A DNA stretch of 64,000 nucleotides, from the NCBI GenBank assembly GCA_021399445.1, contig JAJTUQ010000009.1, positions 513,501-577,500 on the forward strand, given 5' to 3'. Position numbers and translations under genes: made by a program. The stretch's first letter is position 1. Each line of letters starts with the position of its first letter. The notes beneath the pieces were generated by a model. The model was not told the origin of the DNA, searched no databases, and saw only the letters and a program-made list of their open reading frames with translations. Origin of the DNA: Xylogone sp. PMI_703 (lineage: Eukaryota; Ascomycota; Leotiomycetes). This document shows positions 7,747 to 52,799 of this stretch, one piece after another.

Positions 7747-10700
7747 TTATGAAGTATAAGCCGAAGGTAAGGATGCCTCATTCCAACAAGGTATAGCACA
7801 TCTGGAAAAGAGGATTAGTAATATATCAAAAAGATGACTTCTAAAAAGGATAACACTTACTGATCACCTAATAAATCTCCACCGGAACCGAATTGGTCTA
7901 ATACCTCGTTGTCACCACCATCACAAAGGCCATGCCATGAGTCACTATATCCAGTACTGCTGAAAACGTTTGCAGTTAGCCAGGTATAGATGTGAAGATT
8001 CCAGCATGGGCGGTAAAAGGTCAAAATTGGGTTGCAGAGACCCTGTGCAACACATTTTTTGGTATTATTGGCACCAGACCAAGCAACCTCATCAGTTGCG
8101 GTAAACTGGATACTGTATTGGCCAATTCCAGGATCGTTGAATTTTTGAATTGGAGGTGCAGTGGACGCGGGGTTGTTCCACGCACAATAGTTCCAGTCGT
8201 CATTATGTGTATTTGCAGACGTAGAATCGTTACCGGAATGCTCCGAGGGATACGTTTGCACAGTACAAGATCCCTGTACAATGTTATCAGAATTGAATTG
8301 ATTTTAGAACTAGGGTACATACACCTCCTTTTGTCGTAAATTTGAGCCGGCAGTTTTCGTCGTTGTCCTATTGAAGTTAAGAGAAGTCCTTCAGATGAAC
8401 AATAAGGAAGAGGAGAGACATACCCCCGGATTTTTTGGCCCAGAGGGGTTAAATGAAGTAGCAAGAGCATTAGCAATATCTGCTAAAACGACTGTAGCAG
8501 CTTGTCCAGATGCTATTTCGATAAATAGCCCAGCAGAAATCTCGATCAATTCAGCAGCTAAGATCTGACGACCAGCTATCCGGTCATCAGCGGAAGGAGG
8601 AGGGGTACAACTTTGAGGTGGTTTGGTATCCGGATCAAGATTAGGGTCGATATTGAACGACAAACAGTCAGTAGTTAGAGTGCCACCTTGCTTTTTAGTC
8701 TGAGTATCTGTATTACAATTATCAATGATATCGGTGAAATATTTCACACAATCGTCCTAAATGAGAAGGAATATATTAGTAACATAACCATAACCTATAA
8801 AATGAAGTTGCTTTATGAAATAATGAAGACTTGCCTCGGTTATGGTTCTTTGCGGGCAGTTATCGTTCTCTAAGCCCAGCGCGAGAGTCACGTCAACACC
8901 TCCATTATCATCATCATCCCAAGCGTATTTAATGATTTCTTGGCGTACTTCGCTACTATCAAACGAAGGGGCCACATCCGAGCAAAATTGTTTTGCAGCA
9001 TCAAGCAGCTTCGTCCGAGACGTTGTTTGGCCAGCGTTATAGCAATTAAGGTCGTCGGCAGGCTTAGTTCTTGTGCTCAAATTAGGATCGATGTTGAAAA
9101 ATAGACAATCAGTGGTTAGAGTCCCTCCTTGTTTTGCAGTTACAGTATTCGTATTACAGTCATCAATAATACTAGTAAACTGAGACACACAATCAGCCTA
9201 ATGGAGCAAATGTTAGTACTGTATTTGTTAAAGAAGTGACTGCGGAGATGTTAAACTTTACCTGAGACAGTGTAGACAGTGCGAGTGTAGGGCAACTGCT
9301 AGTAGCAGTAGCTATCTCCAGTGTCACATCAATAGCCCCTCCTAAACTATCTTCCCAATCCCACTGGACCACCACCGAATAATCGCGGGTATCTTGAAGT
9401 TGAGATGCCAGATCGGATGTGCAGATCTGCTGTATTGAATCCAGGAGCGCCTGTCGGTCCAGGACCTGGCCTTCGTTATAGCAATTAAGGTCGTCGGCAG
9501 GCTTAGTTCTTGTGCTCAAATTAGGATCGATGTTGAAAAATAGACAATCAGTGGTTAGAGTCCCTCCTTGCTTTGCAGTTACAGTATTCGTATTACAGTC
9601 ATCAATAATACTAGTAAACTGCGACACACAATCGGCCTAATAGAGCAAATGTTAATATTATGTTTACTAAAGAAATGACTGTAGAGATGTTAAACTTTAC
9701 CTGAGACAGTGTGGGTGTAGGGCAACTACTAGTAGCGGCAGCTATCTCCAGCGTCACATCAACGGCCCCTCCCAAACTGTCCTCCCAACCCCACTGGACT
9801 ACCATCGAATAATCGCGGTTGTCTTGAAAGTGGGATGCCAGATTGGGTGCGCAGATCTGCTGTATCGAATCCAGGAGCGTCTGTCGGTCCAAGACCTGGC
9901 CTTCGTTGTAGCAGTGAAGAACAGGGGCAGTTGGGGTCGGAGAGGAAGCTGGCTTAGTTGACGTTGGAGAACTTCCACCTCCCCCAGTGGGAGCAGACCC
10001 TCCACCACCACCGCTACCACCACCGCTACTGGGTAGATCTGTACAGAGATTCTGGTACGCAGTAATAGCACCACTTGCAGGGTCTACACCAATATAGTCG
10101 GCGCGGCCGTCTCCGTTCAGATCCGCAAACAAAACATTCGGACCAGAAGAGCCGATGCCCGATGCAACCTCATCGCCACCATCCATTTCAACCCAGTTCG
10201 CCGCGATGATGCCGACTTGGTTTCGATAGTAGACAGTGCCACCTGTTTGAGTGTGAACCCAGAGGTAGTCATCTCGCCCATCCCCATCAATATCTGCCAT
10301 GCGCACGGCAGAACGAGCGCCGCCGATGCCATTGGCGATACCAGAGCTTCCCGAAAGATCGACCCAGTTCGATGCTATCTGACCAACGGCATTTTTGTAG
10401 TACACAGGGATTGAGCCGTCATCATCCATCCAGAGGTAATCCTGACGCCCGTCACCACTGATATCCGCGAGAATAACGCCTTTGCTGGGTCCAAGCCCGC
10501 TAGCGATGGGATTTTTAATGCCTATATCGTCAAAGCTGACCCATGACCAACCGTAAGTTGGAACAGAGGAAGAAGCACCATTGTTTGCATAGCAAGTCAG
10601 GGCTCCAGTCTTCTTGTCGACCCCGCAATAGTCTGCCTTACCGTCATTATTGATATCGCCGAGTATAACTTGAGACCTTGGGAATCCAATGCCTCCAGCA

Positions 10701-12678
10701 ATAGGCTTGCCATTATTTGCCGGGACCCAGTCCCAGCCATTATTTGCAGCTGGATTTGCACCCCTGTTGAGATATACTGTTAATTCTCCTTGCGGGCCCA
10801 TGAAAATATAGTCATCTCTTCCGTCACCGTCCATATCAGCGAAACGAATACCGTCACCGATGACACTGGTATCAGCCGTGCCTTTGTTTAAGTACACCGT
10901 AATAGCACCAGTGTCAGCATCAACGACGATGTAGTCAGCCTTTCCGTCACCGTCCATATCTGCCATTCGAATATTGGCAGGCTTTGTAGATGTTCCCGAA
11001 GCAATATATTTCGCTGCCGGCGGCGAGCCACCCTGTGGTGCCCAATTCGGTTTACCCTCATTCGCACTGCGAATGTTCAAATAACCTGCCAGACCCCCGT
11101 CTTTGTCGACAATCAGATAGTCTGGGCGGCCATCGCCAGTAATGTCGGCAAGCAGAATGGTTACGTTCCCTTCTGCCGGCCCAGAGGCAGCAATGCCATA
11201 GGGAACCCAACTGATATCTTTAGCGGAGCTATATGTTCCAAAATTAAGCCAGACATTAAGACTACCCTCAGCTGTCTTCACGATATAGTCAGCACGGCCA
11301 TCACCGTTTATATCTGCAAAAATGAGATTCTTCTGGTTGGCGCCACCAGCTCCGGATGCAATAGGTGCATCTAGGGGTGTCCAAAGCCAATTTCCAGGCG
11401 AAGATGAATCCGGCCCGCCATTAATTAGTGCATTCACTTCACCGCTTTCACTAACATAAAGGTAATCTACCTTTCCATCGCCATCAATGTCAGCCATATG
11501 AACACCAATGCCAGGTGCACCCTTTCCTGCATATATTGGATCGAGGCCATTGGGTAAAGTGAAATTCGCCGTGTTCGATCCCATAACGTTAATAGCAGCT
11601 GTAAGGGCACCGTTCTTCGGGTTAATCCACAAATAGTCTGCTTTTCCATCCCCATCCAGGTCACCTAACTGAACACCAGTGCCGTTGCCAAGTCCGCTGG
11701 CTACTCTGCCGATGAAATCCCAGCTAGTAGCGTGGTACACATGATCACCATTTGTACCAATACCACTGGCAATCATATACCCGAGATCTTTTTCACCATA
11801 ACCTTGCCAGACAGGAAGGGATGGACAGGTAGCTCCTTTTCCTCCAGATCCAGGCGGAACGAACTCTGGTCCAACAGGGGCTTTAATCCAACCGTTTGAT
11901 ACCACTTTTTGGATTCCAGCCATCCAGACTTCAGCCATCATCTCATAACCAGCATCAGTTGGATGAAGCCCATCCTTTAAGTCATCTAATGTGAGACCTT
12001 CCATGCTAACCAATTCGACATGTTTGCCTTGGCTGGCCCGAGCTGACACGACATCAGGTATAGCAGCGTTATACGTTAATCTTCTGGAATTGGCAGCTGT
12101 ATCTTCGATAGGAGTGATCTGTGCCACCAGAACCGTAGCATCGGGGCAAGCGTCCAAGATCTCATCGATTAAGCTCCCCAGCCGATCTGGACAGTCTGAA
12201 ACGCAGTAGGGCTGACCAGTAGGCTGTCTCATGTCGTTTGTACCGGCGTGAACGAGGATAAGGTTTGGCCTATCGGGAAGAGACAGCTTGGCATATTCAG
12301 CTATCTCGTCAATTACCTTCCCATCATGCCCTTCATGCCATGATTCATTGAATGGCATAGTGTTTCCATTCTGCACTGAGCCAACAAATTGCAGGTGAGT
12401 TCCAGAAGCTAAGGTAAGAAGACGACTTCGGTAACCTCCATCATCTGAGCTCAAATAGCCATGTGTGATCGAGTCTCCGAGCGGTTGGATACGAAGTTCG
12501 ACGCCTGGTGAGAGATCCGTTCGTGCATCAAGATTGAGCTGTAATATATTAACTTTGTTTCTCCTGTAAGATAGGAAGAGATTACCTTGCTTTTTGCCCT
12601 TGGAATGGCAGTGGTACCAGAACTTAGCAACAAGATGGAAAAGCCAAGATTAAATGCTACGTTGCTTAGAGACTTCAT
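7747..12678 (-). CDS. Secreted SGNH/GDSL esterase - VCBS repeat - repeated Cys-module protein (about 1504 aa)
   Basis: Eight exons: 12678-12586, 12538-9701, 9636-9262, 9197-8835, 8756-8424, 8367-8323, 8273-7861, 7801-7747. Residues 1-24 form a signal peptide. An SGNH hydrolase domain follows (about 45-235) with GDSITHG (Ser54), HAGTNDM and DGLHPTDAG, as in CE3-type acetyl xylan esterases. Then come ten FG-GAP/VCBS units with ADIDGDGKADY-type calcium loops, a Gly/Ser/Pro-rich linker, and three copies of a module of about 120 aa starting CYNEGQ and ending TLTTDCLFFNIDP, each split by one phase-0 intron. A divergent Cys-rich tail ends it. Intron 4 (8757-8834) starts with GC; the last intron has a perfect GTAAGT and TACTAAT. 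The track's separate frames here are exons of one gene. Likely role: extracellular deacetylation of plant or fungal polysaccharide, with the repeats as substrate-binding parts (inference). Confidence 0.85.
8757..8834 (-). other. GC-AG intron
   Basis: This intron of the large esterase gene begins GCAAGT instead of GTAAGT and ends TTTAG. Both flanking exons stay in phase 0 and align with the same position in the sister modules, whose introns use GTAAAG. GC donors with an otherwise perfect consensus are a known minority class. Confidence 0.75.
9036..9215 (-). repeat. Intragenic direct repeat, copy B
   Basis: About 180 bp nearly identical (about 4-5 differences) to 9475-9654. It covers the second half of one repeated module and the start of the neighbouring intron. 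Confidence 0.85.
9475..9654 (-). repeat. Intragenic direct repeat, copy A
   Basis: Partner of 9036-9215. The adjoining parts (9262-9474 against 9701-9915) are also clearly similar but more diverged. Confidence 0.85.
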
Positions 12679-38176: not shown

Positions 38177-39091
38177 TTATTCCGATGACATTGGTGAATT
38201 CCAGTCTCTAAAAAGGCTCACTAGCTGTCCAGAATGACTATGTTCAGCTTTCATATAGGTCGAATTTGCACCAAATGACCAAACAATAATACACATGTCT
38301 TCATCATCATAAGACGTAGATACTTCCAGAAATTTCTTGATTCTGTCGTTATATGTCGGATGTTTATTAGGCGAAAGACGAGAGGCATAAAAGGCAACGC
38401 GGGAAATGATTCCAGTGTGAAAGTCCATTGTGACGGAGAAAGTCCCACCGGTAAAAGGAAAATACTCTTTCACCTCCTTGAAGAGGTTGTCCGAGATGGG
38501 ATCCGCTCTCGCAAGCTGAAGATATTCATTGATTTCGTCCCTTGTAAGTGATTCATGAGTGAAGAAATATAAATTCACAGACTCTTTTTCGATATCAACT
38601 GCTGTATGCCGTACACTGGTCAGGTGTAAGCTTTCGAATACAGGTTGGTGTTGTCTAATGACATTTGGAACTCCATTCACGTTAAGTACCTGGTCGAGAG
38701 GTCGGATGCCGCCGAGGTAGATCCAGAACTTGACTAGTCCCTTATTTGAATCAAAATCGCAAAATTGGTGAGATTCATTGCCATACAGACCGCCCCACGA
38801 TTCAGCAAGGTTGCCCAAAGGATTATCATGACTAATGAATTCAGATTTGCGAGCGATATCAACTTGATCTATGCTTTCGCGTTCATAAAAGCGATAGTTT
38901 AATTCCCCGTTAGGCTTATCCGTCGTCTTCCAAAGAACACTTCCTCTCTCGAAGCTCTTTTGAAAAGTGCTTAAGACTTTCCGAGTTACCTGCTCCGAGT
39001 AAGGAACTTCGAGAGCTGCACAGGCATTCTGAAGGTCCTCGAGGAAGCGTTCCTCTGAAAAGAGGTATAGTGGCCTCATTGAACCCATCAT
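38177..39091 (-). CDS. Aromatic prenyltransferase, ABBA type (PTase_Orf2 / NphB-CloQ family)
   Basis: Intronless, 304 aa, ATG at 39091 (a second Met follows at once). The sequence has features I associate with PF11468: LYLFSEERFLEDLQNACAAL at the start, FISHDNPLG, SVRHTAVDIEKESVNLYFF in a central beta strand, FTGGTFSVTMDFHTG and YMKAEHSHSGQL at the end. Length agrees with fungal members (PtfAt, PtfBf, PtfSs, about 300 aa). These soluble enzymes attach dimethylallyl or longer prenyl groups to phenolic aromatics such as dihydroxynaphthalenes, without the DDxxD motif. Neighbours are a broken EthD gene and an alpha/beta hydrolase, with no PKS or NRPS in the window, so any pathway is incomplete here. 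The real substrate is unknown. Confidence 0.85.
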   Translation of the reverse strand: MMGSMRPLYLFSEERFLEDLQNACAALEVPYSEQVTRKVLSTFQKSFERGSVLWKTTDKPNGELNYRFYERESIDQVDIARKSEFISHDNPLGNLAESWGGLYGNESHQFCDFDSNKGLVKFWIYLGGIRPLDQVLNVNGVPNVIRQHQPVFESLHLTSVRHTAVDIEKESVNLYFFTHESLTRDEINEYLQLARADPISDNLFKEVKEYFPFTGGTFSVTMDFHTGIISRVAFYASRLSPNKHPTYNDRIKKFLEVSTSYDDEDMCIIVWSFGANSTYMKAEHSHSGQLVSLFRDWNSPMSSE

Positions 39092-43530: not shown

Positions 43531-46136
43531 TTATGGAGATGGTGTCACGGAGTAAGGCGGAGGTGGTTCGTCGGGCATTGTTGATATTCGATTGCGACTA
43601 GAGCCTAGTCCGCGAGTGGAGAAGCGCGCACTAGGAAACCCCCCGTGGCATGCACGACATCGATCTCTCTCAGCGTAAACCAAACCAGACCCGTTGCAAG
43701 TCCTGCATTTCCAGACCATGGTGCGATGATTGTTGCGGCTACTGCTTCTGCTACTACTCTCGCTTGGAACTATCCCAACACCTCGACAATCGTGGCAGTT
43801 TCTTCCCGTGCCTCGTCGTCCTCCACGCCCGTTACAGGTGAGGCAAAAGACATCACCCGAATCATCAGCCACAGCCGAACTATTTTCCTCGAAATACTAA
43901 GCAAACCAATCAGTCTGAAAATCATACAAATGGTTTAACAGGGGGTTCTCACCTGTTGCCGTCTAAATCCAGCACCGCGGGAAGAAGGTCGCTGTTCTCC
44001 TCGCCGGGTCGATGACGGCAATTCCCCTTGCGATCCGGCAGAGCCAATCTTTCGATGCGGGCTCTGCTGCTCTTCTTGATGCTCAACCAAAGCAGCGCTT
44101 AAATAGTTAACAATGTCCTGGTATGCTGACATATGAGGACGGATCCTATCAAGTATCGTTTCTGACACGCCTGCCTCAAACGCAGCCTGAAGGATCTTTA
44201 CCCCCTTGATACCGGTCCATTTACCGCGCTGGCCTTTGAGATATAGCGCCTGTAATCCGATAGTCCTTATCACTGTTAGTGCTGAGGGACTGGGTCGATG
44301 TTTTTCAATAGTATCTCCTGCACGCCTTCGTACAGGTCCACTTTCAACATCAAATTCGGTGTCGGTTTCAGTCTCTCCGGACGCTTGTTGTGGCGGCGGT
44401 AAGAGATACAACTTTCGTACATCATAGTCCTCCAGCATTCGAGTAATGGTCCGGTTTCCTCGCTCGGCAGCGAGGTCCAGCAGTTCTCGATACTCCTTTG
44501 TTAACCAGGCGCCCTTTTCTAACAGCATTTTGGCAAGGTCGGCGTCACCGAAGTCGACGGCTTGGTATAGAGCTGAGATATATTTCCCTCCATGGGCTAA
44601 AACATCAGCTCTAGCCTTGATTAAGCTTTGGGCACATTCTTCATGTCCTTGGGATATTGCTGCGATCAGAGCAGTGTGATATTCCCCTCCGGTAGCATTT
44701 ACGTTTGCGCCATGTCGAATGAGGAAGTCCACATTTTCTGTCTGGCCAAGAAATGCGGCAGCTGCCAATACGGAGCCGTATCGGGTACAGGGAGCGTTGA
44801 CATCGTGGCCATTTTCAACCAGCTCCAAGAGTTTGTCTTTATCATTCTGCAGTACTGCACTGCAAAGCGAATCGCCAGAAAGGACCAGTGTCATTCCCAT
44901 CGTGGAAGCAAGTCGCGCCTCCTCTTCCATCCAGAAAGAGCCCGGCGTAGTCCCTGATAGTTTGGTAAAAGTGTCACTTCTCACGAATTTATTGATATCC
45001 CATGGCTCAACAACCTTCGTAGGAATAATTACCGGGCTGTATGTGACGGCGTCGATAGTCATGACCTCTCCACCTCGTACCGAGATGTCGACCTTGATGG
45101 AAAGTCGAGTGAAAACTTCCCAGTTATCACGGGATCCGCGGAATCTAGAGCTGCGATCTCCATATAAATCTTCTAACTCCCCTCCTGACAAGAAATGATC
45201 GCAGCATTTTAGCGCTTCTTCTGACAGACCGAAGATTACGAATCCTTGCACTGTACTTTCACTGTCTCCTTTATAAATCCCTGCATTTTTTAAGCCATGA
45301 GGTTTAAAGCGATTGTATCCTCTCAACCTCGCCGGTGTCATTTGCTCCGCTGCGTGCTGAAGAGAAAAGTTGATCCTCGACCATTCACTAGCATCAGTCT
45401 TCAACCGGCGTTGATGTCTTTCAGAATAAATCCCTTCGGTGTTGGTAAATTGCTCGGCCCTGGCTCTGAGGATGCTTGGAAACATCAACGATCCATAAAC
45501 GAACAGTGGTGGAGGCACTAGAGCCGAAAGCCTAGTCGACGGAGTCACCATCTCGATCTCTCGTCGGGTAAACCGATTTGTCGATGCAAGGAAATAAGAG
45601 GGAACCATGCTTGACCTTGGTATTCTCAGGCCTTCACTGGTTGGGCCTTTCTCTCCATCTTCTTGCGACCCAATACCTATCGAGAGGTTCGGTTCATCTA
45701 GAGGTTCTGGGTTGATGAAATCGTAGTTGGGGTTGTTTTCTTGGGTTTCTCTAAAGGGCATCGTTGGTTCTGGTCGTCTGCTATCAGGCAACATACTGAA
45801 TCGAACATGGCGCCCTGCATCCTCAGTACTCGCCATATCTTTAGCTTTCCCTTCTGATGCAGAATTTGATGTCTCCAGAATTGAAGTCGCTGATGTTTTG
45901 GAACTGCTTAATATTTCTTTTCCTGAAGCCCCCATTAATACAAAATCCACCCTGGTTTTGTTATCTTTTTGGGTCTGGACTCTTGTGGCTGAAGTAACAG
46001 ACGGCATCATTCGACTCCAGCCGAAATCATGCACTAGGTGCGTGGATCGATAATGCTCTTCAAGCTCCTCTCGGCCGTTGAATCTTGAGTCGATACTTGA
46101 AGTTGTGGTGGCGCATCCCGGCCATTGGCAACTCAA
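43531..46136 (-). CDS. Fusion protein: C2H2-like finger, GGCT/AIG2-like domain, ankyrin repeats, DnaJ-type zinc motifs
   Basis: Exons 46136-43953 and 43896-43531 (56-bp intron, GTGAGA...TTAG, phase 0); 849 aa. Order: a zinc-finger-like start with CQWPGC...HYRSTH (1-33); a long Ser/Thr-rich linker; a gamma-glutamyl-cyclotransferase/AIG2-like fold from about 208 with FVYGSLM and MTPARLRGYNR; about four ankyrin repeats (420-560; DVNAPCTRYGSVLAAAAFLG, GANVNATGGEYHTALIAAI); a basic disordered part; and a C-terminal exon with CLTCNGRGG, CHDCRGVG, CRTCNGSG and CRACHGG. No transmembrane segment was seen. Ankyrins suggest protein binding and the CxxCxGxG pairs suggest zinc. It sits immediately downstream of the kinase gene on the same strand (35 bp from its stop at 46171), hinting at shared control. 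Function unknown. Confidence 0.85.
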
Positions 46137-46170
46137 TCTCGAAGTGTCAAGGCTAACTCGTCAGCAGGTT

Positions 46171-48073
46171 TCATATATAATGATAGATGTTTGCGCACCC
46201 TTTTAGAAACCTATCCACCGGTGATCTTGACATCTCACGTTCTGCTAAGTTAGAACCGAGCGAAGTTACAATTTGGTCTCCATCTCCGTTTGATTCACTT
46301 TCGAAGGGGCCAATTACTTCCGCAGAACTTAGGTTGTAAACGATTGTGACTGTACCCTCATAATCTTCGACCGTGGGTGGATGCCAATTTGACTTAACTA
46401 CCGGCAGATCTACTTCCTTGCAATCTACTGGGAAGACTTCTAACACTGAGTCTGCATCGTTCTCTTCGAGAATTGGACCCGCAAGGGCAGTAAGAGACTT
46501 GTCAGGAGAGTCAATGAAGGGTAACGGCTGAAAAGACTGCTGAGGCACATCGCTTTCCAGAAAATACTCCCTTGCCGACTCATTGTTCGTCATTCTCAGA
46601 GTGCCATTCTCGCTATCACAGCAGTGACCGCAGTAGGGAACATCCCCTTGAAAATCCAGGATTTCTGAGACAACCTGCGCCGCCGTTGGTCGATGGTTTG
46701 GCTGTTCTTGGCACATGTCCCTGCTTAAATACAACGGCTGCATATCATCGACAGAGTTTGACGAATTCTTTAACTCCTCCAACCACATGTCTGCTGCCTC
46801 ACTGTTACCCCGTACGTACGGGCCGCGAGTACCGTGAGTCTCGAAATAGCTCCGCATCTCATCCACCGTCCGATTATTTAGTGTGGTGCCCATCTCCAGG
46901 AAGACGCATCCTAATGACCACAGATCGCTTGCTTGGTTTCGAGCCTACGCACAAGTTAGCTAATGTATAGTTGGAAGTTCCCTCCGCCCTGAATATTTTC
47001 GGAGGAGAGGAGGGGGGAAACATCAAGAATGCCTCGCCAAGGTCAAGCCAAACACTTACAGCGCAGCCAGCCACTTCAGGGGCACAATACCTCTTCGTAA
47101 ACCCAATAGATGTCCCGCTAGAAGTACTTCTTGTGTCATTACTCCAATTATGAGAAGTGCCAAAATCGGTGAGTAAAACAGCCCTGTTCTTGACTAGGAT
47201 ATTTGCAGGTTTGATATCCTTGTGCCGGATTTGTTTTTGATGGAGATAATCCACAGCCGTAGCAAGGCACCCAAAGAATCTCCGAAGGCAAGTCTGACGA
47301 TCTATCTGGTCGATATCTTCGGCTCTCAAGAAGTAGTCCAAGTTACAATCTGCTACTGGCTTCATAATTAATCCAACCCAGTTCTGATCAGTGTAGGAGC
47401 TAATCAGCTTGACCAGGTGCCTGTGGGAAAGGGTCTTGAGTGCTTTGAGCTCGTTCTCGAAACTCTTGATAGCCTCGCGATCTCGTTTGAAGGACCTGCC
47501 CCGAGGTATCCTCTTACGAGCAAAGTGATCGATGCTCAACCGGCCTACAACATGGTCTACCTGTCCAAAGCTGCCTCTACCGAGCTCTTTGACGGTAATG
47601 AAATAGTCATCTGCATTTCCCTCGACATTCTGATGCGGCTCACCTTCTTTCTCGAGGTGCTCTGCATGTGCTGTAAGGACAAAGTTCTGCAAGTCCAGAA
47701 ACTGCCTGCGAGCCTTGTCACCCTTGACAGCCTTGGGCAAATTGGCGGCTGTGTAAGGCAGAGCAATGTCGGAGTATCCCAGTTGGACGAACTCATCAAC
47801 CGCCTCGTAACAGCCTATCATATGAAGAATAATAAAAGTGCGAGGTCTGAGGCTCCATTCATGCTTGCCATACATGGCACACCAATCGGAAACGCGGACA
47901 AACTCACTGTCTCGAAGACGCTTTGGTGCCTGTTGGCCATCGCATATAAGAGGGGGCGCGATCTTATTAAGCCCCTTGATGAACTCTGATGTGTTCAGGA
48001 CCTTTTCGATTTTACTGGCAATAGCTCCCAAGACACGCTGTGAGGCACCTGCGGGGGCAGTTGCAACGGCCAT
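46171..48073 (-). CDS. Serine/threonine protein kinase, catalytically complete
   Basis: Exons 48073-47060 and 46944-46171, intron of 115 bp in phase 0; 595 aa. A helical N-terminal region of about 155 residues without a known domain precedes the kinase. Key motifs: glycine loop GRGSFGQV (about 165-172), Lys in HFARKRIP (about 187), catalytic loop RHKDIKPANIL (Asp about 285), TDFGTS (303-306), CAPEVA, and DLWSLGC in the second exon. The C-terminal part of about 140 residues is acidic and probably disordered. Start: an in-frame alternative uses ATG 48184-48182 followed directly by a GTAATT intron to 48116, adding MDPSDLGQVATGLLN; I cannot decide. It is divergent from the HeLo-pseudokinase gene, sharing a promoter region of about 0.7 kb, and is likely its signalling partner (inference). 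Confidence 0.87.
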
Positions 48074-48801
48074 ATTGAGCAAGCCAGTCGCAACTTGACC
48101 GAGATCAGATGGATCCTTCAGAAATGGTAAGCCGATATCACGACTACAACGATGTACGGTGTATTATCCGTGTTCAATTACCATTGTACTGTTTTCACAT
48201 CCCAGTTGGCCCCCTAACTAACCCTAAAGACGGCAAATATTGCTAACAGGATTGATACTATGCCTGGTAACTGGCGTATCAAGAGTGAAGACCGAGGTTG
48301 AGGGGCCTTCACACTTGGAGAACTCGCGAACTATATGCCGCATACTTAGCATAATGCTTCAGCTCTTGGCTCTTGGCTCTATTCTTTGCTTCTTATCGTG
48401 ACCAGTCACACAGCCCGGCGATCGGAGGCGAGCTGAACGCCCTTCACATTGTACCTGGTAAGATGCGGCTCTGCAGGTTCCCCCTCCCCCACTCAATGGT
48501 TAAGGCTTGCACAATGCGCAGAGCACAGTCAACTATTGGCAATCATCCCAGCACCGCCTCCACTAACTATACCCAATGCTCCGCCCCGCTACCAATAGTT
48601 CAATTACTTCCGCGCAATTGGTAATCATGCTTAAATCCAAATCGATCCTTGGGCTTGCTGCGCTCCTTCGCCTCGGGCCGTGAGATCGTCTGCCCTTGTC
48701 ATCAAGTACCCTTACTGCTTTCGTCTATGATGATAATATAACATCGAGTCTCAAACACAGGAGGCTCCTCTGAAGTATCATAATAGTCCTCCTTTCCAGC
48801 C
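48074..48801. promoter_or_regulatory. Shared divergent promoter region
   Basis: About 0.7 kb between two genes transcribed away from each other (kinase on minus, HeLo-pseudokinase on plus). It is pyrimidine-rich near 48370-48400 and has no supported ORF. No TATA box stands out. Confidence 0.5.
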
Positions 48802-50716
48802 ATGGATCCAATTACCGCGGCTGGAATCGCTCTGAGCATCACCTCCCTAGCACTGCAGGTCTTTGCGGGGTGTGTGCGAGGTATGTTCCTTGAGATATCT
48901 ACTTCAACTCTTTACCCGGCAACATATTAACAATAAGTCACAACAAGGGTACCAAATATTTGTTGAATCAGCGGATATGCCACAGAACTTCGAGCACCTT
49001 CGTACACGCTTAAAAATCGAGCAAGCACGACTGCTTAACTGGGGAGAGAACATCGGCCTTGTGGAGGAGCTGCTGGAGCATCCGAGTCAAACGCTGCGAC
49101 TGAATCAGAACCTGATCCTCGACATTCTGCTGCAGGTCCAAACTGCATTTAAAGCGTGTATCAAGATTGAGTCAAAGTTTGGCGAAATCACAGGCCAAAC
49201 AAAGACGACCTCCACAGCTTCATCGTCATCCAAGCCAAAACAGAGGAGGTCATTTCTACACAGGACACTAGCTGTGCTGGAGAACCCTGCTCGAATTTCA
49301 GCATCGCTACAGTGGGCGATGGTCAAGAGCGATGAGTTCGAAGGCCTAGTTGCCAGATTGATCGGCTACAATGATGCAGTGTGGTCGCTTCTCGACAGGC
49401 ACCATATGCAAGACCTCCGGGTTATGCAGCAGCAATCGAATCTGATCATGCTGCAGCTGGCAGAACAGGTGAGCGAGCTGCGCCAGATTACGGCAGCTAT
49501 GGCTATTCGACCTGCTGGGATGGAGGCTCCATTCAAGCACAGCTTTTCACGGACTTCGACTATCGTCGAGGAAGAAGATCAAACACAGGATTTAACACTC
49601 TCAGCACTTGCTACTTTCAAGGAACAGCACCTCTCTATAGAGGCATCTAATTTATCTTTTAGTGAAGGATTGATCTCACTGAGTGAATTGCCCTCATCAT
49701 TGGACAAATCTGATTCGTCTGCACTCTTCGAGTTCGGCAGTAGCATGGCATGGTTGGAATGGAGAGAGCCAGTGGAGGACGATCTCACGGAAGACCTCCT
49801 TATTAAGATGGATCAACGCGTCTGGAAGCTCGCGAAGCTGCTCAGTCAGCCCACTAAGCCCAAGCAGTTCCGGGCCCCGCGCTGCCTGGGGTACGTCTGT
49901 GATATGGAGGAGGAATACGAACCGCGGTACGGATTTGTCTATGAAGTCCCAGCTCAGGAGAAATTGGATGGTTCATCCAAGCAGCAACAACAAATGCATA
50001 ACTTGCGTGAAATGTTTCTAACAATGCTATGTCCATCACTGACGAGGAGAATGAGACTCGCCTTGATGATATCCGAATCGCTATTCTACCTGCACGCTGT
50101 GAATTGGCTGCACAAGGGCCTCCGTAGTAAGAGCATCCTCTTCTTCACGGACGCCACCCCGAACCCTCAGACAGACTTCTCGTCACCCATTGTTTCAGGA
50201 TTCGACTTCTCGCGGCCCGACCTCCCTGACGAGGTCTCTGTCCGACATCCATCCAACATTTTCGACGACCTATACCGACCCCCTGAGCGTCTCGAAGATC
50301 CTTACGGAGCTGGCACGCCGAGGGCGCAAAAGTCTAATGACGTATACAGTCTGGGGATCATATTGCTAGAGATTGCCTTCTGGCAGCCGATTGAGATGGT
50401 TATGGGAATTTCAATGGAGGGTAAGAACGTGCGGAGCTTGGTCCGCAAGATCCGGGAGAGGATTCTTGACCGGAGAGATGATGGTGTGGCTGGGAAGCAG
50501 AGCATCTTGGCTGAGCTGGAGGGCCGGGCGGGCGATGTATATGCTGAAGTAGTCAGAAGATGTGTGCAGGGAGGAGAAGCGATTGGGGTTATGACTACTA
50601 ACGCTGATGTTGATGCTGATGACCCTGAGATGGAGATGAAGACAAAGTCTGAGGTGAAGATGCAGCAGGTTTTCTTTGAGGAGATTCTAGCTAAGTTACA
50701 AGTGCTGGTCACTTAG
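48802..50716 (+). CDS. HeLo-domain pseudokinase (MLKL-like architecture), putative cell-death effector
   Basis: Exons 48802-48880 and 48948-50716 (67-bp intron, TATTAAC branch-like site, phase 1); 615 aa. The N-terminal MDPITAAGIALSITSLALQV and the region to about 215, with LRTRLKIEQARLLNWGE, match the HeLo domain (PF14479) of HET-S/HELLP-type proteins, a helix bundle whose first helix inserts in membranes. A linker follows, then a kinase fold (about 320-600). The expected catalytic His-Arg-Asp is HKG (about 415-417), DFG is DFS (446-448), and no glycine loop or invariant Lys is evident. The later lobe is well kept (DDLYRPPERL, NDVYSLGIILLEIA). This is therefore a pseudokinase. HeLo plus pseudokinase is the same plan as MLKL. 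Role: membrane-damaging effector under kinase control, possibly in heterokaryon incompatibility (inference). Confidence 0.87.
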
Positions 50717-51287: not shown

Positions 51288-52799
51288 ATGGAATTGGCAG
51301 TCGTTATCTCAACCCCAAATCGCCCCGCGGCTCCTAAGAACAGAGAACATAGCGCTGCTGAATGGGAATGCATGCGGGAGATAATCAAGTAGCTGTATCT
51401 CGATGATAAACAGCCGCTGCCCAGGGTCATGGCCATCTTACGAGTCCAATATGGCTTCAACGCGACGTGAGTATAAATTTTGAGTAGTCGCTATTGTCGG
51501 TAAAAATTATATTCACTGATCGCTATTAGAGCCCGGATGTACAAGCAAAGATTGAAGGCTTGGGGGTTCAGGAAGAACTGCAATATGCAGGATGTGCAAA
51601 GACTTGCTCGTTATAGGCTTAAGAGGAAGGCTATGAACGAGACGAGTATGACAGAAGATATGGTGCTGGAAGGGATTGCTGATCAACAAAAAATACTGAC
51701 ATACGTGAAGCGGAAGTGCTGGCGTTCAGAATCCTCACGAACCCCTCTGCTGCGATATTTGGGTGGTCCCCGGGACCTTGAGGGCACAGAAATCATGCTC
51801 GCGAATATTTCCAACTATATAATCGGTTCTTTCGAGAATGGGAGCTTGGCTGCGGAAGATGGATGGATCAATAATAATGGAGACTCTGATATCGGGCCCA
51901 TGGAGCAGCTGCACAGATGCCTGAGCGTGTATATATCGATGCTGAGAAATTCAGACTCTTGTCGCGCTGGACCTTTGCTCCTGGAGGCATTTGCTCTGGT
52001 GAAACCGGCTGTTTGCAAGGCAGAACCGGAGACTTTGGCCGTGCTATTTTCAACTGTGCTTACATTCCGTGAAGAGATACCGGAGGTTGTCCGATATCTC
52101 CTCCAGCACTTTTCCCAGTGGGCCACCTTCCTTTTGCCCCAACACCACCCCCTTACACAGACATTGAAACAGCTTGCCTTGCTTGAGGATTCTATTGCGG
52201 AGATTGCAATCATCCAAGCTTGGAGAAATCTTTTGGATCAAGTCGAACGCTTTGTAGGACCGACAAATCTTGATCAGATCATTTCACGAGGAAATTTCAC
52301 GCTTATCACCGATCCGGCCAACCAAGATGTCTGGCTAGCTCTAATTAAACGGCTCAATTCCCATCCCTTAGCACGTTCGAAAGACATGTATGACTTTCTT
52401 AGGATTGTGTCCATGATTATCAAGTACAAGTGGAACAGTGGCATTTTAGATGAAATATTCGAAAGTGAAACCCTAACTTGTATCTCTCTTACAAGCCAAT
52501 ACCTAGGCATGTATCATAATGTGTGGATAGAAGAAACGAAGGCCGACTGCTTGCTATTACTAGCGCAACTTTACTACTCGGATGGCCGAGCTAAACTTGC
52601 GGAGCAGTGTCAAAGGCAGTACATTGAGGCGCTGGCCTGGACATACGGCAGAAATGACCCAGAAGTTGTTAAAGCACTTTTAACTTTGGAGCGTTGGTTG
52701 ATAGAATGGGATAACATGGCTGAACTAACCTTGGTTCGGTCAAGAATACAAAAGGCCGTGGATGAACTTGCTACACAGAACGTATTTCTGGATGCATAA
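51288..52799 (+). pseudogene. Clr5-domain protein gene with in-frame TAG in the Clr5 domain
   Basis: Exons 51288-51466 and 51530-52799 (63-bp intron, GTGAGT...TTAG); about 482 codons. The first exon and start of the second encode a Clr5 domain (PF14420): EWECMREIIK-stop-LYLDDKQPLPRV, then QYGFNAT/ARMYKQRLKAWGFRKN. The TAG at 51390-51392 sits where relatives usually have Gln or Arg, so CAG-to-TAG is likely. The remaining 423 codons are open and helical, with no recognised domain. An internal ATG at 51537 could start a protein lacking most of the Clr5 domain. Clr5 proteins are often found in fungal incompatibility-like loci next to kinases or NLRs. The gene is either newly dead or read through. 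Confidence 0.8.

Follow-up and report, generated by a model that had tools for sequence, protein, structure and literature searches.

In animals, MLKL joins a helical bundle to a pseudokinase in which the catalytic HRD and DFG motifs read HRN and GFE and the VAIK lysine is kept as VTIK (PMC12463104). Fungal HeLo and HELL domains have been linked to MLKL, and fungal executioners are encoded beside NOD-like receptor (NLR) controllers (PMC12881547, PMC10197012, PMC9815663, PMC5485727, PMC7885112). Examples are het-S/nwd2, hellp/pnt1 and hellf/fnt1, in each of which a HeLo or HeLo-like executioner stands beside its controller gene (PMC12881547, PMC7885112). The fungal HeLo controllers known from these sources are NLRs, which act via amyloids or are fused to the domain. 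Some fungal HELL domains are joined to a kinase or pseudokinase domain within one protein (the same five papers), and plant MLKLs and wheat Pm13 join an N-terminal MLKL-type domain to a kinase-like domain, a likeness at the level of domain architecture (PMC10951266). Here we describe a locus in a 64,000-nucleotide stretch (‘the window’) of the fungus Xylogone sp. PMI_703 (contig JAJTUQ010000009.1, positions 513,501 to 577,500 of the forward strand), where a HeLo–pseudokinase gene on the plus strand and a gene for a large multidomain kinase on the minus strand lie head-to-head, as an earlier note on this DNA had reported.

Our favoured reading, to which we assign a probability of about 0.48, is that these genes form a conserved two-gene regulated-cell-death module, in which an MLKL-like executioner is gated by a kinase scaffold that acts as sensor or switch, where other fungal pairs use an NLR. 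As in MLKL–RIPK3, a helical bundle is joined to a pseudokinase with degenerate HRD and DFG motifs (GFE there, GFD here), and the active kinase is a separate protein. As at het-S/nwd2, hellp/pnt1 and hellf/fnt1, the putative executioner and controller come from neighbouring genes; there the controllers are NLRs and the executioner has an amyloid tail, whereas here a kinase scaffold and a pseudokinase take these places. HeLo/HELL–pseudokinase fusions are already known and share the architecture of our plus-strand product, but the papers that report them name no partner kinase or gene pair in their accessible portions; the pairing with a partner kinase gene is what appears to be new. The literature searched, with subscription papers mostly outside it, held no description of a kinase and HeLo–pseudokinase gene pair, nor did the accessible portions of PMC12881547, PMC10197012, PMC9815663, PMC5485727, PMC7885112, PMC4835503 and PMC12258605. 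Literature searches on DUF7580 and on ‘fungal MLKL’ returned no match.

The HeLo–pseudokinase and its divergent kinase neighbour

Once spliced, the plus-strand gene (Table 1) translates to a protein identical to P0001, a public 615-amino-acid (aa) protein of Xylogone sp. PMI_703 (Leotiomycetes). Exon 1 and the early part of exon 2 encode the first helix of its HeLo domain. We found 604 homologues which, together with the recurrence of the pair described below, show the locus to be more than a chance arrangement; the HeLo–pseudokinase set used below consists of the 120 listed of these, 100 of which entered the alignment and the profile. Compared with the PDB, this profile matched the HET-s HeLo domain (2wvo) first, with E = 3e-9. 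Among kinases it matched MLKL first (4.8e-9), practically tied with IRAK4 (1.7e-8), a tie that leaves the orthology of the pseudokinases unproven. The AlphaFold 2 (AF2) model is helical over residues 3–211 (predicted local distance difference test (pLDDT) 84.7; predicted template modelling score (pTM) 0.86). Taken with a Pfam HeLo match above its cut-off, these results support the N-terminal HeLo domain proposed in the earlier note and strengthen its MLKL-like reading of the protein. The hidden Markov model check suggested there (PF14479 and PF00069) gives HeLo at 89.6 bits on the plus strand and Pkinase at 112.7 bits on the minus strand; the Pkinase match on the plus-strand gene is below threshold. 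Helices at residues 201–211 and 231–259 lie between the bundle and the kinase fold of the model, a possible counterpart of MLKL’s two-helix brace. In 22 of the 24 listed proteins that start with MDP, this one included, the N-terminal 19 residues are the most hydrophobic segment of that length. The protein resembles MLKL in its build and probably attacks membranes. Across the same genome, four of 17 DUF7580 places adjoin a HeLo place, and most of the DUF7580 pseudokinases found seem to be without HeLo.

The C-terminal part is, by sequence and model, a kinase fold without catalytic aspartates, as expected of a pseudokinase: the aspartate is gone from the HRD position in 98 and from the DFG position in all of the 100 aligned homologues. 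The HKG reading of the HRD position stands, but the DFS formerly read at the DFG position was out of register, and the true residues are GFD. Unlike MLKL, which keeps the VAIK lysine, the protein has Glu297 at that position, as do all 100 homologues; with R317 it forms what looks like a charge-swapped pair. D491 in the F helix and Y469 are invariant (100/100), which might suggest that the pseudokinase can still catalyse the transfer of phosphate, or of a different group, through unusual chemistry. We give this idea hardly any credence, as other residues stand in place of the VAIK Lys, the HRD Asp and the DFG Asp, leaving no complete catalytic site. Structure searches, mostly with residues 262–615, gave CDK9 and CDK12 (Foldseek) and MerTK and BRAF (VIA-align) as top rows, so fold alone singles out no kinase group. 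MLKL was not among the rows shown, which excludes nothing.

The minus-strand gene is longer than the earlier note had it. The stop at which it was taken to end, at 46171, lies in an intron, and the frame continues across this and one further intron to 43531. Counted from the ATG at 48073, the spliced product is 1441 aa; homology reaches at least 48154, upstream of that ATG, and the gene model therefore lacks a short first exon. The protein consists, in order, of a helical N-terminal part, an active kinase, and C2H2-like, GGACT-like, ankyrin and DnaJ-type zinc parts. The homologues P0128 (99% query coverage, 39% identity) and P0132 are single proteins with the identical order. Some homologues, P0124, P0126 and P0138 among them, carry a precomputed PF06094 match; the match here is slightly below the cut-off. 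The model of another homologue, P0142, contains helical, kinase, alpha/beta and ankyrin parts (pLDDT 80.6, pTM 0.55). PPPY or PPPPY occurs within the last 60 residues of seven of 16 kinase-bearing relatives (15 of the 70 partner-family proteins defined below, plus P0167), a possible WW-domain ligand.

The kinase domain has the motifs of an active enzyme, as first noted: the glycine loop, FARK, HKD, DFG and APE are all readable in the translation, and among the 16 kinase-bearing relatives HxDxK is present in 15 and DFG in all. The idea that the enzyme is RIPK3-like found no support. Its best PDB matches, PDK1, PKA, CDK2, NEK7 and ASK1, score almost equally, and the best 60 of 1826 matches include no RIPK. 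Two simple RHIM patterns were unmatched in both window proteins, in the 120 HeLo proteins and in the 70 of the partner family; the less strict G.Q.G matches 18/120 and 4/70, respectively, but neither window protein. With its scaffold of about 1.4 thousand residues, the partner is, by sequence, not visibly RIPK-like, unlike the kinase of the animal system.

Kinase and ankyrin repeats also occur in one protein in RIPK4 and ANKK1. A RIPK4 is a weak match of the partner (P0178, 3.8e-11), which differs in adding the C2H2-like, GGACT-like and DnaJ-type zinc parts. The nearest paralogue of the kinase in its own genome (36% identity) lies at L034:2992–7275 (C1, about 8,718,000). Its open frame, 1428 aa long, combines a kinase domain with a HET domain, named for heterokaryon incompatibility, and we count this fusion as support for a cell-death module. 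No HeLo–pseudokinase relative was detected by tblastn in the 9.9 kb around it.

Recurrence of the pair in other fungi

To the partner family we assigned P0121–P0165 and P0241–P0265 (70 proteins), leaving out P0166–P0168 and also P0169–P0240, whose names and coverage point to other kinases or to ankyrin proteins. A partner-family protein was called linked when it and a listed HeLo–pseudokinase lay on contigs of identical base count. By this measure, 16 of the 70 are linked to one of the 120 HeLo–pseudokinases (an earlier tally that included P0166–P0168 gave 11/48), and control shifts of the sizes by 1–60 bases in each direction gave a mean of 0.17 matches and a maximum of 1. Twelve of the 16 linked contigs are no longer than 63,081 bases, three of them 8.0–8.6 kb; on three of the other four, which are longer, the locus tags lie 1–3 apart. 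The tags are adjacent in Cladophialophora chaetospira (011955/011956) and Elasticomyces elasticus (001741/001742) and nearby in Endocarpon pusillum (000282/000285). The linked named hosts are thus Eurotiomycetes (Cladophialophora, Endocarpon) and Dothideomycetes (Elasticomyces), to which Xylogone adds the Leotiomycetes, so the pair is not confined to this genome, and the linkage persists at about 36% identity across three classes. A rapidly built tree of all 120 places the linked HeLo–pseudokinases in several clades. Across 17 pairs, the window’s included, the distance matrices of the two families correlate with r = 0.90 (0 of 10,000 permutations as high), a value owed in part to the shared descent of the hosts.

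Occurrence of the pair in several distant fungi suggests that the kinase controls the HeLo–pseudokinase. Adjacency of putative controller and executioner genes across species is, as far as contig sizes and locus tags show, also the arrangement of fungal death-effector clusters. Neutral or accidental microsynteny is an alternative, as the evidence from elsewhere consists of contig sizes and locus tags. We regard this explanation as very improbable; the equal contig sizes far exceed the shift control, and the tags are adjacent in one eurotiomycete and one dothideomycete.

Several observations weigh against a module with a controlling kinase, among them the shared descent behind the correlation and the lack of visible RIPK character described above. 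Linkage elsewhere was read from equal contig sizes and locus tags, and only three of the 16 linked partner records contain the kinase domain (P0128, P0132 and P0144), the rest being shorter. From partial lists, and not counting the window’s own host, three of 13 named partner hosts and three of 13 named HeLo–pseudokinase hosts are matched. The ten partner hosts without a counterpart among the listed HeLo hits are Chaetothyriales sp. CBS 134916, Cyphellophora, Flavoplaca, Saxophila, Clonostachys, Boeremia, Aplosporella, Cryoendolithus, Alternaria and Microdochium; Xylogone’s own kinase is itself not named in the partner lists, so absence from those lists says little. One clade of 52 HeLo–pseudokinases (support 98) has no detected partner in any member, two of them on contigs longer than 2 Mb, which implies that the executioner may exist without this kinase partner. 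Finally, the Xylogone genome has three unpaired paralogues, L031–L033, which all share E297, R317, HK[G/S], GF[D/E] and T/S457; these motifs are therefore no signature of pairing but features of the HeLo–DUF7580 family at large.

The clade with no detected partner and the unpaired paralogues L031–L033 also favour a different explanation, in which the two genes share only a process or an expression programme and something else activates the HeLo–pseudokinase, as it would for its unpaired relatives. We think this quite unlikely in view of linkage at about 36% identity, over three classes and with correlated divergence. Lasallia, Mycoblastus and Exophiala are among the named hosts of the 52-protein clade, which may use a different partner or have undergone a loss.

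Within the Xylogone genome, tblastn of seven 9.9-kb stretches (six around HeLo places, one around the kinase paralogue) revealed no second pair of this family. A kinase open reading frame about 2.6 kb from L031 was considered as a second pair and rejected, as it aligns to a partner homologue over only 104 columns. One scan of viral contigs found no relatives.

A possible kinase-to-pseudokinase relay

How might such a module work? In our favoured reading the HeLo–pseudokinase would be the executioner, its C-terminal pseudokinase holding the N-terminal HeLo bundle with its hydrophobic first helix. The neighbouring kinase scaffold would serve as the sensor or switch for its release; the simplest way would be phosphorylation of the pseudokinase, for example at activation-loop position 457, which is conserved as Ser/Thr. 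The freed HeLo domain could then insert into the membrane and cause cell death.

Alternatively, the partner may be a scaffold or guard that holds the HeLo–pseudokinase through its ankyrin or helical parts and releases it when disturbed, with kinase activity needed for the partner’s own function. The kinase domain makes up the smaller share of the partner, and in its alignment (58 rows, most without the kinase domain) every invariant column lies C-terminal of the kinase domain. Position 457 is kept in the unpaired paralogues too, so it need not be this kinase’s target. On the other hand, catalytic motifs that a mere scaffold would not need are retained in nearly all kinase-bearing relatives examined, and we consider this alternative unlikely, if worth serious attention.

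A release by phosphorylation would amount to a fungal necroptosis-like relay from kinase to pseudokinase, in which a co-inherited non-RIPK kinase scaffold switches an MLKL-type executioner with no NLR or amyloid step, in at least three classes of Ascomycota. We offer this more specific proposal tentatively, judging the odds to be against it. If it is true, the kinase partner supplies a missing, phosphorylation-type branch of HeLo control in fungi, and it becomes possible to test whether control of the MLKL kind is ancient or evolved on two occasions.

Feature coordinates and other genes in the window

Table 1. Features of the divergent gene pair, in window coordinates.
Feature	Position	Strand	Details
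HeLo–pseudokinase gene	48802..50716	+	exon 1 48802–48880, intron 48881–48947, exon 2 48948–50716; 615 aa
Pfam HeLo match, exon 2	48948..49486	+	PF14479, 3.1e-25, 89.6 bits (cut-off 23.2)
E297 (beta3, VAIK-Lys position) and R317 (alphaC)	49757..49819	+	E in 100/100, R in 99/100 homologues; from alignment and AF2 strands
DUF7580 / pseudokinase C-lobe	50033..50701	+	DUF7580 41.4 bits (cut-off 27)
HKG replacing HRD	50111..50119	+	H and K in 100/100; third residue G 94, S 4, D 2 of 100
GFD replacing DFG	50198..50206	+	G (G444) 100, F 98, D/E 96 of 100; aligns with MLKL GFE
Ser457, pseudo-activation loop	50237..50239	+	T 94, S 6 of 100 homologues
Region between the divergent genes	48155..48801		may hold the short first exon of the kinase
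Partner kinase gene	43531..48154	-	exon A about 48154–47060, B 46944–46199, C 46152–43953, D 43896–43531
Intron inside kinase domain	46945..47059	-	115 nt
Intron	46153..46198	-	46 nt, GTGCGC...CTGAC...TTAG; contains the stop earlier taken as gene end; frame kept
GGACT-like domain	45177..45506	-	PF06094 21.6 bits (cut-off 22.8)
Ankyrin repeats	44502..44864	-	Ank_2 8.3e-15
Intron before last exon	43897..43952	-	56 nt; sequence reading, frame checked
DnaJ-type CXXCXGXG zinc domain, last exon	43642..43845	-	PF00684 35.1 bits (cut-off 32.7)
C-terminal PPPPY	43552..43566	-	kinase protein ends near it

Three other genes of the window may be mentioned. Adjoining the pair, a 431-aa open frame (51504–52799, plus strand) has no Pfam match at E 0.001. 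An Orf2-type aromatic prenyltransferase (PF11468, 7.7e-80) is encoded at 38177–39091 on the minus strand, and at 9611–12649, also on the minus strand, one open frame joins a GDSL lipase to FG-GAP repeats.

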